Made by a program: the position numbers and the translations under genes
The notes under the pieces: generated by a model
Told to the model about the DNA's origin: nothing
Seen by the model: the letters and a program-made list of their open reading frames with translations, nothing else
Database searches by the model: none
Shown here: positions 14,428 through 51,026 of the stretch, piece by piece
Layout: each line of letters opens with the position of its first letter
Numbering within the stretch: the first letter of the stretch is position 1
Assembly: GCF_000024885.1 (NCBI RefSeq)
Contig: NC_013512.1
Span: 1,426,001-1,490,000, forward strand
Source: Sulfurospirillum deleyianum DSM 6946
GTDB lineage: Bacteria; Campylobacterota; Campylobacteria; Campylobacterales; Sulfurospirillaceae
DNA: 64,000 nt
Reading direction: 5' to 3'

Positions 14428-15342
14428 TTACCCTTCTATCTTAAACACACGAAGCCTTGCACTTCTACTTCGTGGATTTTTTTTAAGCTCTAAAGGTGAA
14501 GCTTCTATGGGCTTTTTACTGATAATTTTTCCTAACGCATGGTTATTACCACACATGCAACGCATGACGTGTGGCGGGCAGATACAGTTTTGACTCCAAA
14601 ATTTAAAGGTCTGTTTCACAATACGATCTTCTAAGGAATGAAACGAAATAATCCCTACGATACACTGCGTAAAACCAGCGTTTTGAATGCTCTCTAAGAG
14701 CTGTGTTAACACACCCAATTCGTTATTGACCTCGATACGAATCGCTTGAAAAAGAAGTGTTGCGGGGTGAATACTCTTTTTACCTGGTATTTTTTGAGCA
14801 AGAAAAGAGAGCTCTTTAGCACTTTGTATAGGCGCTTTGAGGCGTGCCTCACACATCAGTTGCGCCATCTTTTGATACGCATGAATTTCGCCATATTCCC
14901 TAAAAATAAACTCAAGTTGTTCTTTTGTGTAGTGATTAACCACTTCATAAGCGCTCAGTGATTGATGGGGATTCATCCGCATATCAAGCACCTCTGAATC
15001 AAAAGCAAATCCACGCTCTTTTTTATCGAGTTGCAAAGAAGAAACCCCAATATCCGCTAAGATACCACGAATCGGTAAATGTGCGTACTGAGCAATAACA
15101 GAGGCAAAATTTCCATGATGAAACATAACACGCTCACCAAAACGCTCCAAACGCTTTTTGCTAAACGCTAATGCCTCTTCATCTTGATCGCACCCAATTA
15201 GCCGTATATGTGGATTTTGTTCTAAAAGTGCTTCACTATGCCCGCCATATCCAAGCGTACAATCAATAATAACGCCATCAGAGATATTAGAAAAAGCCGC
15301 TTTAACCTCTTCTAAAAGTACGGGAATATGGGGAATGTTCAC
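14428..15342 (-). CDS. rsmH: 16S rRNA (cytosine(1402)-N4)-methyltransferase RsmH
   Basis: A 304-residue SAM-dependent methyltransferase. It starts MNIPHIPVLLEEV and shows the family motifs DCTLGYGGHSEALL, IGCDQDEEALAF, ILADIGVSSLQLD, RGFAFDSEVLDMRMN, and a C-terminal SFHSLEDRIVKQ. RsmH methylates C1402 of 16S rRNA at the ribosomal P site. It is the first gene of a minus-strand pair with the FtsL-like gene; the leader carries the structured repeat at 15371-15507. Confidence 0.95.
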   Translation of the reverse strand: MNIPHIPVLLEEVKAAFSNISDGVIIDCTLGYGGHSEALLEQNPHIRLIGCDQDEEALAFSKKRLERFGERVMFHHGNFASVIAQYAHLPIRGILADIGVSSLQLDKKERGFAFDSEVLDMRMNPHQSLSAYEVVNHYTKEQLEFIFREYGEIHAYQKMAQLMCEARLKAPIQSAKELSFLAQKIPGKKSIHPATLLFQAIRIEVNNELGVLTQLLESIQNAGFTQCIVGIISFHSLEDRIVKQTFKFWSQNCICPPHVMRCMCGNNHALGKIISKKPIEASPLELKKNPRSRSARLRVFKIEG

Positions 15343-15370: not shown

Positions 15371-15507
15371 TATTAGAGTTCTTACAGAACTCTTGACACA
15401 CCTTTAAAGCAAAGCTCTAAAGGCTACGTTAACACTGGGTTTTCCTAGACGGAATGCCCACGCACCTTTGGTGCTTTTTCTTCTTACAAAATGAGTTTTG
15501 CAAGAAG
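15371..15507 (-). ncRNA. Structured intergenic repeat, copy A (upstream of rsmH)
   Basis: This segment is closely similar to 49425-49576. Features read on the minus strand are: a 12-pair hairpin at 15480-15507; a conserved single-stranded block matching GGTGCGTGGGCATTCCG; the block GTGTTAACGTAGCC; a stem around GCTTTGCTTTAAAGG; and a perfect hairpin AGAGTTCT/AGAACTCT at 15375-15393. G-U pairs fall in the stems only if the minus strand is transcribed. It lies 28 bases before rsmH. It could be a cis-regulatory RNA, a small RNA or a dispersed repeat. It matches no riboswitch class I can recall. Confidence 0.5.
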
Positions 15508-15511
15508 TTTA

Positions 15512-16816
15512 TTATAAATCATTAACACTTACAATCGCCTCATACGCCACATCCATCATCCGCTCAATCTCTTTACATGTAATAACATAAGGGGGCATAA
15601 AATAGACAATATTTCCCAAAGGTCTAAGGATGACTCCCTTTTTCATGGCATACTCAAAGATTTTGAGATTGACCCGAAAATCAATGGGGTATTCTTTAAG
15701 TTCAACCGCTGCTATCATGCCTGTTTGACGAATAGTTTGTACGTTAGGAAGTGCTTTAAAACGCTCTAATTGCTCAGCAATAAACGCTATTTTTTCCTCA
15801 TTTTTTTCTAAAATAGACTCTTGCTCAAAAATATCTAACGTTGCATTGGCCGCACTGCACGCTAAAGGATTTCCTGTATAGCTATGGGAGTGCAAAAAAG
15901 CCTTAAATTCTACATAATCACCATAAAAAGCCTCATAAACCTTTTGCGTGGTTAAGACTACTGAGAGAGGAAGATAACCTCCCGTTAGCCCTTTAGAGAG
16001 TGTCATAAAATCAGGACTAACACCTGCATACTCACACGCAAACATTTTCCCTGTTCTCCCAAAGCCAACAGCGATTTCATCGGCAATGAGGTGAATGTCA
16101 TAGCTATCACACAGTTTGCGAGCAAGTGTGATGTAGAGTGGATGATACATATGCATTCCCCCCGCACACTGCACCAAGGGTTCAATAATAAACGCAGCAA
16201 CTTTTCCTTCATACGCCTGAAACACTTTTTCAAGCCCCAGCGCTGCCTCACGAGCGGCCTCTTCACTTTGATCTTTTGGAACGGGGGCTTGTAGGGTTTG
16301 GAGTAAAATATCTTCAAAAATCTCTTTATAGAGTTTGACATCGCCTATGGCTAAAGCGCCTATGGTCTCGCCATGATAGCTATTAGAGAGGGAGACAAAA
16401 AAAGGACGTTTTTCGCCTCTATTTTTATGGTATTGAAAGCTCATTTTAAGTGCCACTTCAATCGCACTAGAGCCATTATCCGCATAAAAACACTTTTGCA
16501 ATCCTTTTGGAGCAAGCGCACACAAACGTTGTGAAAGTTGAATGATAGGTTCATGCGTAAAACCTGCAAATATCACATGTTCAAGCGTATCAATCTGCTC
16601 TTTTACTTTTTGATTGATATAGGGATGACAATGCCCAAAAAGATTAACCCACCATGAACTAACACCATCAATATAAGCGTTATCTTCAAAATCATACAGA
16701 TAAACGCCTTCTCCTTTTTTGATGGGAACAAGAGGAAGCGTCTCGTGGTCTTTCATTTGGGTGCATGGATGCCAAATATATTTCAAATCTTCTTCAATTA
16801 AACAATCTTTTTTCAT
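15512..16816 (-). CDS. bioA: Adenosylmethionine-8-amino-7-oxononanoate aminotransferase
   Basis: A 434-residue class III aminotransferase. It starts MKKDCLIEEDLKYIWHPCTQ and includes GHCHPYINQKVKEQ, DNGSSAIEVALKMSFQY, SNSYHGETIGALAIG, LIADEIAVGFGRTG and the PLP lysine in TLSKGLTGGYLPL. The N-terminal HPCTQMKDH is specific for BioA, which makes 7,8-diaminononanoate in biotin synthesis using SAM as amino donor. The start is preceded by a spaced promoter region of about 100 bases shared divergently with the ppiD-like gene. It carries one copy of the palindrome at 15573-15582. Confidence 0.92.
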   Translation of the reverse strand: MKKDCLIEEDLKYIWHPCTQMKDHETLPLVPIKKGEGVYLYDFEDNAYIDGVSSWWVNLFGHCHPYINQKVKEQIDTLEHVIFAGFTHEPIIQLSQRLCALAPKGLQKCFYADNGSSAIEVALKMSFQYHKNRGEKRPFFVSLSNSYHGETIGALAIGDVKLYKEIFEDILLQTLQAPVPKDQSEEAAREAALGLEKVFQAYEGKVAAFIIEPLVQCAGGMHMYHPLYITLARKLCDSYDIHLIADEIAVGFGRTGKMFACEYAGVSPDFMTLSKGLTGGYLPLSVVLTTQKVYEAFYGDYVEFKAFLHSHSYTGNPLACSAANATLDIFEQESILEKNEEKIAFIAEQLERFKALPNVQTIRQTGMIAAVELKEYPIDFRVNLKIFEYAMKKGVILRPLGNIVYFMPPYVITCKEIERMMDVAYEAIVSVNDL

Positions 16817-49127: not shown

Positions 49128-49409
49128 TTATGCTTTCATATCCAGCAAAGTACCGAGCATTTCATCTTGAGCTTGAATGGGTTTTGTATTCGCTTCAAAG
49201 GCTCTCTCGAGTGAGATTTGGTCTGTAAACTCGGTCTCTAAATCGGTACTATTTTGAGTTTGAGCGCTCTGCGCCACCACTGCATCATTTTGGTTTGTAA
49301 TGGTTGTTTGTGTTGCTTTAAACTCTTCCGTATTTACATTAGCAACATTATGAGCGCTGTTTCCCATCCAGCTTGACATTGCCATCATCGCATTTGCATT
49401 AATCTGCAT
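49128..49409 (-). CDS. Minimal flagellar rod/hook-type protein, 93 residues
   Basis: A 93-residue protein whose N-terminus (MQINANAMMAMSSWMGNSAH, then NVANVNTEEFKA) and C-terminus (DLETEFTDQISLERAFEANT, then IQAQDEMLGTLLDM) match the two ends of flagellar rod, hook and FlgC-type proteins, but the middle domain is missing. A strong AAAGGAGG site precedes the ATG. It could be a small rod-like adaptor or a decayed gene; the intact frame and site favour a functional one. The leader carries the structured repeat copy B. Confidence 0.75.
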   Translation of the reverse strand: MQINANAMMAMSSWMGNSAHNVANVNTEEFKATQTTITNQNDAVVAQSAQTQNSTDLETEFTDQISLERAFEANTKPIQAQDEMLGTLLDMKA

Positions 49410-49424
49410 GAGAACCTCCTTTTT

Positions 49425-49576
49425 TATTAGAGTTCTTTCAAAACTCTTGGCATACCTTTAAAGCAAAGCTCAAAACGTAGTTTCTGTGAAAAGGCTACGT
49501 TAACACTGGGTTTTCTCGGCGGAATGCCCACGCACCCTTGTACTTTTCCTGCTTACAAAATGCATTTTGCAAGCAG
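49425..49576 (-). ncRNA. Structured intergenic repeat, copy B (upstream of the rod-like gene)
   Basis: This is similar to 15371-15507 over most of its length. Shared blocks on the plus strand include ACCTTTAAAGCAAAGCT, GGCTACGTTAACACTGGG and CGGAATGCCCACGCACC. The long hairpin stem is CTGCTTACAAAA/TTTTGCAAGCAG here and CTTCTTACAAAA/TTTTGCAAGAAG in copy A: a T-A pair is replaced by G-C with both partners changed. Copy B has about 15 extra bases that pair CGTAG with CTACG. It ends 15 bases before the start codon of the downstream gene. Confidence 0.5.
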
Positions 49577-49631
49577 TTTGTTCAGGAAAACTATACTCCC
49601 ACTGCTTTGAAAAATATCTAAAAAATAAACA

Positions 49632-51026
49632 TTAAACATAAATCGTCTCATTTCTTTTGACAATATGCACCTTCAAGCCTGTATTCTCTTTTAAATAAGT
49701 TTTAAAAAGCTCTAGTTTATCAGGTTCGCCATGAATCAAATAGATATGATTTAAGCCTTCCATTGGTTTTATCCATTGCAACATATCGTCTCGATCTGCA
49801 TGGGCTGAAAAACCATTGATGGTATAAATTTTGGCGCGTACTTTAATGTCCTCACCATAAATGCGAATAAACGACTCACCATCTACAATTTCACGTCCGA
49901 GTGTTCCTTTCACCTGAAACCCTACAAAAACAACCGCATTTTTAGGATTCCAGATGCGCTGCTTCAAATGATGTAACACTCTTCCTCCCGTACACATACC
50001 GCTTCCAGCAATAATAATCGCTTTTTTTTCTACGTCATTAATTTCCATTGAATCTTTTTTACGTTGTGTATGACGTAATTGTGGAAAGGAAAAAGGGTCA
50101 TCGCCTAAGCTGACATGTAACCCCACGGTTTGATTCATATGCATAGGATATTTTTGATAAATCTTGGTTGCTTCAATAGCCAAAGGACTGTCTAAAAACA
50201 CATGACAATTTCCTAACAATCCCTCATCATGCATCTGTCGCAATAACCATAAAATCTCTTGTGTTCGCTCTAAAGCAAAAGAAGGAATGACGATATTGCC
50301 ACCCTCTTTTAACGTTTGGGTAATTACCGTTTTAAACTCATCAATGCTCTCTTGAAGTGCGCGATGTTCCCTATCCCCATAGGTAGATTCAATAAAAAGC
50401 GTTTGAGCCTCTAAAACAGGGGTTAATTCATTGAGTAAAAGACGATTTTTACTCCCTAAATCTCCTGAAAATATAACACTTTTTTCAACCTCATCTTCTC
50501 TAAAATGCATTTGAATAAATGCACTCCCTATAATATGCCCTGCATCATGAAAACTCATCGTTAAAAAAGGAGCGATTTTTATGGTTTCTTCATACTGTGC
50601 GTAGCGTATCTTTTGCGCAAAGACATTTTCCACATGCTCTTTGGTGTACAAAGGCTCTTGCACCGAAGCCTCTTCTCCCCTACGCAGTGCTTTTCTTAGT
50701 TGCGTTTCATACTCTTCCATCAATAAAACCGCACTATCAAGCAGCATAATATACGCTATATCTAAGGTCGCTTCCGTGGCAATAATCTGCCCCCTAAACC
50801 CCTCTTTAACGAGCTTTGGAACACGTCCTATGTGGTCTGTATGAGCATGGGTTAAAATCAAATAATCAATCTCTCTCGGATTAAACCCAAAAGGGTTATA
50901 GTTTTCTTGCCACAACTCCCCTTGAATCATTCCACAATCAATCAAAATTTTAATAGAGTGAATTTCGACTAAGTGACACGAACCTGTTACCATAGATGCG
51001 CCACCGTACGATGTTACGTTTGCCAT
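49632..51026 (-). CDS. MBL-fold beta-CASP RNA-processing type hydrolase
   Basis: A 464-residue protein: metallo-beta-lactamase motif HAHTDHIGRVPKLV, DAGHIIGSAFIQM, FSGDLGSK, then a beta-CASP domain and the C-terminal GFSAHADRDDM. The set resembles YSH1/CPSF-type nucleases found in bacteria, with GSGMCTGGRVLHHL. Such proteins act on RNA; the target here is unknown. It is co-directional with the acyl-CoA ligase, 10 bases downstream of it. Confidence 0.85.
   Translation of the reverse strand: MANVTSYGGASMVTGSCHLVEIHSIKILIDCGMIQGELWQENYNPFGFNPREIDYLILTHAHTDHIGRVPKLVKEGFRGQIIATEATLDIAYIMLLDSAVLLMEEYETQLRKALRRGEEASVQEPLYTKEHVENVFAQKIRYAQYEETIKIAPFLTMSFHDAGHIIGSAFIQMHFREDEVEKSVIFSGDLGSKNRLLLNELTPVLEAQTLFIESTYGDREHRALQESIDEFKTVITQTLKEGGNIVIPSFALERTQEILWLLRQMHDEGLLGNCHVFLDSPLAIEATKIYQKYPMHMNQTVGLHVSLGDDPFSFPQLRHTQRKKDSMEINDVEKKAIIIAGSGMCTGGRVLHHLKQRIWNPKNAVVFVGFQVKGTLGREIVDGESFIRIYGEDIKVRAKIYTINGFSAHADRDDMLQWIKPMEGLNHIYLIHGEPDKLELFKTYLKENTGLKVHIVKRNETIYV

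Follow-up and report, generated by a model that had tools for sequence, protein, structure and literature searches.

A mobile intergenic repeat of Sulfurospirillum, probably a MITE-like unit with a REP-like, GTAG-tagged pseudoknotted core

The REPs and MITEs known from bacteria are mostly simple hairpins. REPs are defined by a GTAG motif before the hairpin, and RAYTs are the enzymes belonging to them (PMC3733652, PMC8266576). GTAG repeats have been reported in the epsilonproteobacteria, including Sulfurovum NBC37-1 (PMC3733652). The Y1 enzymes of subclass 2.1, or RAYT group 1, are prevalent in the epsilonproteobacteria, with no REP known for them (PMC6006769). A structured repeat with a GTAG tag was found in a 64-kb stretch of the genome of Sulfurospirillum deleyianum DSM 6946, the whole of which is referred to here as the window. 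No description of a Sulfurospirillum repeat of this type was found in the open literature searched.

The first-pass annotation of the window had placed two copies of the repeat at 15371-15507 and 49425-49576, in the same orientation, and both were present as placed. Exactly two cores were detected in the window by the family covariance model R1, both on the minus strand. The core of copy 1 scored 106.9 bits (E 1.4e-20) and the core of copy 2 scored 53.4 bits (E 1.9e-9). The genes flanking copy 1 are bioA, with its stop at 15512, and rsmH, with its start at 15342; the minus-strand fold of this copy was 7.5 s.d. below that of dinucleotide shuffles. Copy 2 is located between a gene for a beta-CASP nuclease (stop at 49632) and an FlgEFG-like gene (start at 49409), the protein of which is 93 aa long. 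The features of both copies are collected in Table 1.

Table 1. Positions of the repeat units and their parts in the window, and of the element with near-identical ends in a second Sulfurospirillum genome (G023)
Feature	Position	Strand	Basis or remark
Whole MITE-like unit, copy 1	15373..15509	-	bounds from alignment with unoccupied sites
Left-end TA, target duplication of at least TA	15371..15372	.	TTATTA/TTTATTA fits too; G014 compared with window site
Right-end TA, second target copy	15510..15511	.	unoccupied-site comparison
Terminal inverted repeat TAGAGTTCTTACAGAACT	15374..15391 (genome 1441374-1441391)	+	itself palindromic; minus-strand 3' hairpin
Opposite terminal inverted repeat TAAACTTCTTGCAAAACT	15494..15511 (genome 1441494-1441511)	-	terminal-repeat search, fold
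12-bp hairpin into which the TAAACTTCTTGCAAAACT repeat runs	about 15480-15507	5' on minus strand	fold
87-nt conserved core, copy 1 (H1, pseudoknot with H2, H3, GTAG, H4)	15392..15478	-	model R1
H1 hairpin, GCACC-AAA-GGTGC	15462..15474	-	5 pairs, 5/5 doubly changed order-wide
Pseudoknot and H2	15442..15458	-	covariation, motif table
H3, 2-bp mini-hairpin with GNNA loop (GT-GTTA-AC)	15428..15435	-	UA/CG/UG covariation, 100% paired
GTAG tag directly 5' of H4, REP-like	15424..15427	-	nearly invariant in alignments
H4 hairpin, 11 pairs, TTT loop, conserved G-U	15400..15424	-	10/11 pairs doubly changed
Whole unit, copy 2 (right boundary approximate)	49427..49580	-	occupied compared with unoccupied relatives
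Core of copy 2, 17-nt insertion in H4 (last hairpin)	49446..49547	-	model R1
G023 end pair	222616-223533		DDE_Tnp_1 at 222678-223091
G023 end pair	941336-942253		DDE_Tnp_1 at 941778-942191
G023 end pair	1019711-1020628		DDE_Tnp_1 at 1020153-1020566

Two other features of the window were observed. For the beta-CASP metallo-nuclease (49632-51026, minus strand), the top NCBIfam models were Cas14 (type VII CRISPR) and archaeal aCPSF1, with scores well under either cut-off. The palindrome TTTACATGTAAA was hugely over-represented, with 17 occurrences in the window where base composition predicts 0.02. In the sister species G014 it occurred 486 times in 2.1 Mb against 0.57 expected, and six control palindromes occurred 0-1 times each. 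Many of its sites adjoin ORF ends, and it may serve as a HIP1-like or uptake-like signal. The window also holds 33 TTACATGTAA sites, for example at 2811, 3394, 6806, 11468, 12806, 14125 and 15573.

The two copies had been annotated as lying in leaders, with conserved blocks reminiscent of ligand-binding RNAs. A cis-regulatory leader or riboswitch acting on rsmH and the flagellar gene would fit the marked structure of the strand that is sense for both genes, and the conserved unpaired blocks on it. A leader position turned out to be wrong in general, as the unit occurs in all gene arrangements. About 26 full or partial copies were found on both strands of the whole 2,306,351-base genome, and 23 of 23 other Sulfurospirillum genomes carry copies. 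None of 85 distinct copies was within a long ORF. The arrangement relative to genes was same-sense for 32 copies, antisense for 24, convergent for 13 and divergent for 13, with no significant bias. Twenty-four copies in other families were likewise intergenic and unbiased in orientation, and the few ORFs called across distant copies appear spurious. Because copies are never in long ORFs and show no orientation bias, a leader function is excluded as a general explanation. Shared downstream functions had been proposed as a point to look for, and the flanking genes were found to be unrelated. Neither the copies in the genus nor those in other families showed the constant position and orientation ahead of genes of related function that characterize riboswitches. 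The core matches no known Rfam RNA family; the window copies and about 25 related loci gave no match in Rfam 15 at relaxed and gathering thresholds, in agreement with the earlier failure to recognise a riboswitch class. Furthermore, the unit was present in the bioA-rsmH gap of the window genome only, and 22 of the 22 other Sulfurospirillum genomes with a readable gap were without it (G022, in which contig L196 ends before the gap, is outside this count). A regulatory leader for the two genes is thus scarcely credible. The annotation had offered a dispersed repeat as the alternative, marked by many copies of random orientation and position, and this is what was observed.

Comparison of occupied and unoccupied sites indicates that the window unit is mobile. 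The unoccupied site of the sister species G014 reads AAAATGTCTGTTTTATTATAAATC, against GTCTATTTTA-[unit 15373-15509]-TATTATAAATC in the window. The site of copy 2 was occupied in the window genome (G000), G005 and G022, and unoccupied in G003 and the other relatives with a readable gap. Among the window-genome copies with both flanks in G014, about 15 sites were unoccupied there and one (L022) was occupied, in a comparison covering about 2.1 of 2.5 Mb. As several of the alignments lie in diverged intergenic DNA, the argument is carried by the clean cases L001, L005, L010, L022 and L023. A possible target duplication was seen at the rsmH site, where TA (up to TTTATTA) is doubled, and at L023, where TA is doubled; its length is ambiguous between 2 and 7 bp, and the other sites were too diverged.

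Copies consisting of the core only were also variable. One of them was present in G014 and G019 and absent from G009, G021 and G023, so that core-only copies come and go as well. Long target duplications were not general at core-only copies and flanking repeats were inconsistent, although one core-only insertion had an imperfect repeat of 14-17 bp at both ends. This insertion and the RNA-like covariation described below speak for an RNA-borne (retro-type) mobile element, in which a trans-supplied reverse transcriptase would turn the folded RNA back into DNA. The inconsistency of the flanking repeats argues against this explanation, which is very improbable.

Most copies of the window genome are bounded by terminal inverted repeats, giving a unit of ~137 bp. 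Unit lengths were ~137-154 bp, with no coding gene. The unit ends, TAGA[C/G]TTCTTGCA[A/G]AACT, occurred in the window genome solely as pairs 120-137 bp apart. An order-wide search identified near-identical ends, TAGACATCTTGCAAAACT, in a second Sulfurospirillum genome (G023, 2,814,086 bases), in pairs 918 bp apart, and the pairs listed in Table 1 coincide, by coordinates only, with DDE_Tnp_1 matches. Shorter units with the same ends were observed in other families of the order, with lengths of about 271 bp (G039, G074, G225, G069) and about 104 bp (G059, G056). With ends shared by units of ~918, 271 and 104 bp, the terminal repeats are part of a broader family of transposons. No autonomous element with the unit ends was found in the window genome or the fetched loci.

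The inner part of the unit is an 87-nt core, which is shared by copies from different species, including those with divergent or no outer parts. Read on the minus strand of the window, the core folds into four hairpins and an H-type pseudoknot. The H2 hairpin is formed by TTCC and GGAA (15454-15451 with 15445-15442), and in the pseudoknot GGC at 15458-15456 pairs with the loop of H2 (G15450-C15448). The loop of H3 was found as GTTA, GACA, GTCA, GATA and GTGA, and the conserved G-U pair of H4 was never replaced by A-C. RNAalifold, applied to 57 copies mostly from the genus, gave 25 pairs with double changes in 19. In an order-wide alignment of 55 distinct copies, 97.1% of the cells were paired and 21 of the 25 pairs were doubly changed; this alignment was fitted to the covariance model, which favours structure, and a motif table read straight from the sequences agrees with it. 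There were 336 doubly changed cells; shuffles gave about 99, and sliding of the partners no more than 73. The compensatory change from T-A to G-C noted between the two window copies is real and part of a much wider pattern. Absence of covariation in further copies had been named as evidence against a structured repeat, and the covariation was very strong. The wobble pairs were also correctly assigned to a minus-strand RNA, with 94 G-U pairs against 8 A-C pairs on the structured strand. The preference for G-U over A-C on one strand points to constraint on one folded single strand, either RNA or ssDNA.

The annotation had further described two strongly conserved single-stranded blocks, GTGGGCATTCCG and GTGTTAACGTAGCC, as reminiscent of ligand-binding RNAs. 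Their conservation was upheld; the reading as a ligand-binding leader was not supported. The first is the pseudoknot strand with the second hairpin, and the second is the GNNA mini-hairpin with the GTAG tag. The strand GRGC, located before the second hairpin, and the H2 loop GCYGA change jointly, GGGC occurring with GCC and GAGC with GCT. The informative pair of the pseudoknot was GC in 33 copies, AU in 21, GU in 1 and mismatched in 0, and both covarying states were found within one genome (L157 of G188). Of the three pseudoknot pairs, a single one is variable enough to covary, and the support for the pseudoknot comes from it. A pairing of GGG with a 3' CCC strand, proposed first by RNAalifold, was rejected, as it was unpaired in 17 copies against 0 for the pseudoknot.

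The search with a covariance model, recommended at the outset for the genome and its relatives, revealed a widespread structured family. At E<=0.01, 94 of the 299 genomes sampled from the order had a core match with model R1; these belong to eight families and to 23 of 81 genera. A draw across the phylum gave matches at E<=1e-4 in 45 of 298 genomes, every one of them in the same order. The named records bearing the core were Sulfurospirillum species and MAGs. Positive genomes had from 1 to at least 14 copies in the order-wide scan and up to 74 with fuller scoring, the latter number being reached in the draft genome G188. Head-to-tail tandem arrays of the core with a period of about 90 bp were observed in L157 and L183, and in G188. 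At L187 (1501-1586), L176 and L060, the cores were within longer tandem units, with 21-38 bp repeated on both sides. The pseudoknot, the GNNA loop and the one-sided wobble (G-U pairs on one strand, not A-C) are RNA-like, and could suggest a candidate family of independently transcribed, trans-acting small RNAs. A copy number ranging from 1 to 74, gain and loss of copies between sister species and tandem arrays do not fit such a family, and it is an improbable explanation.

The core was not matched in phage records, and a single partial match was found on plasmids, in a Sulfurovum plasmid. Two IMG/VR contigs hold the core between structural genes. At L192 (5681-5771) the core is between the genes for a phage portal and an XkdF-like protease, and at L193 (1933-2016) a phage capsid gene is among the structural genes concerned. 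Phage carriage is one possible route between families.

The window copies are probably short non-autonomous mobile repeats, with outer DDE-type terminal repeats and an inner structured core. Given the mobility and the ends shared with a DDE-transposase element, a MITE with a REP-like, GTAG-tagged structured core is the best reading of the window unit. The outer module would be the terminal inverted repeats of the DDE-transposase element. Judged from these ends, the window unit appears to be moved by a DDE transposase, which would be supplied in trans and would carry the ~137-bp unit into TA-rich intergenic DNA. By the action of such a transposase on its terminal repeats, the unit would work as a MITE. 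The inner module would be the 87-nt core, made up of the GTAG-tagged hairpin, two further hairpins, the GNNA mini-hairpin and the H-type pseudoknot. Eight or more families of the order have the core alone, lacking the outer repeats. The shape of the core may be conserved because a protein recognises it as a folded single strand, be it RNA or, during transfer, ssDNA. If rsmH or the flagellar gene is affected at all, this would be incidental, with the hairpin being a passenger of the mRNA, as described for REPs. The conservation of structure across families exceeds the need of a dead passenger, and the core therefore probably has a selected partner or role. As a tentative extension, the core could be an unnamed pseudoknotted mobile-element class of Campylobacterota, with a folded single strand recognised by a dedicated enzyme, and secondarily captured by a DDE-type MITE in Sulfurospirillum; it would then be either the missing repeat of the group-1 RAYT transposases or an RNA-level mobile element.

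Alternatively, the GTAG-tagged core could be the substrate of a RAYT-like Y1 transposase, by which folded ssDNA would be cut and rejoined, the outer repeats being a later addition in Sulfurospirillum. GTAG stands immediately before a hairpin that has a conserved irregularity, as it does in REPs (PMC3733652, PMC8266576). A Y1 gene was found in 23 of 24 Sulfurospirillum genomes, usually one per genome, and the odds ratio for co-occurrence of Y1 and core was 3.3 over the 299 genomes and 2.4 outside the genus, phylogeny being ignored in both. The Y1 protein of the window genome has NHYH and YIETNP motifs and resembles subclass 2.1 (PMC6006769); however, it was under the cut-off of the RAYT model (72 of 80 bits). 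Thirty of the 94 positive genomes gave no Y1 match, among them complete genomes holding 5 to 20 copies of the core. No copies were within 1.5 kb of 30 Y1 loci, and only distant ones were within about 10 kb. Neither strand bias relative to the replication fork, with the origin assumed at position 1, nor inverted pairs of BIME or REPIN type were found. RAYT as the obligatory mobiliser was ruled out, as nearly one in three positive genomes is without Y1, and no copy of the repeat flanks a Y1 gene. The absence of flanking copies, the Y1-free positive genomes and the moderate association make RAYT action a rival and not a conclusion, and an unlikely one.

The RAYT-like Y1 gene of the window genome is located at 310039-310365 (L080), beside gyrA as identified by eye from the translation, and several complete Sulfurospirillum genomes seem to have it in a comparable map position. 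The GTAG repeat reported in Sulfurovum NBC37-1 may correspond to H4 and its GTAG.

A dispersed repeat that keeps a five-helix pseudoknotted fold over several families implies a specific recognising partner, and identification of this partner would show how such repeats spread. The alignment and covariance model provide a ready family for annotating Campylobacterota genomes, in which unannotated copies could be mistaken for leaders or riboswitches.

Compared with known systems, the unit resembles DDE_Tnp_1 IS elements (IS4/IS5-like) in its ends, as near-identical terminal repeats flank such a transposase in G023, an assignment to family made by Pfam and coordinates only; in contrast to these elements, the window units are without a transposase. 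With RAYT group 1 or Y1 subclass 2.1 (PMC6006769), the Sulfurospirillum Y1 gene shares a similar length (an open frame of ~258-264 aa) and motifs, but it is physically unlinked to the repeat and missing in a third of the genomes that have the core. Features in common with the GTAG REPs (GTAG/CGTC superfamilies, PMC3733652) are the intergenic location, GTAG directly 5' of a hairpin, G-T pairs, tandem groups and many copies. A REP is a palindrome of 20-50 nt with GTAG 5' of it, and in the core GTAG is nearly invariant before the 11-bp H4. Unlike REPs, which occur as the palindrome alone or in inverted pairs, the core is an 87-nt unit with about 50 nt more conserved structure 5' of GTAG and four other helices, and is found as single or head-to-tail copies. 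A flanking or consistently co-occurring RAYT gene was not found among the 30 Y1 loci and the 94 positive genomes. Finally, the window unit is, like the MITEs Correia/NEMIS and ERIC, a short, multicopy, non-coding, intergenic sequence with terminal inverted repeats and a TA-rich target, presumably moved in trans. It differs from them in consisting mostly of a covarying pseudoknotted core, which lives without terminal repeats in other families.
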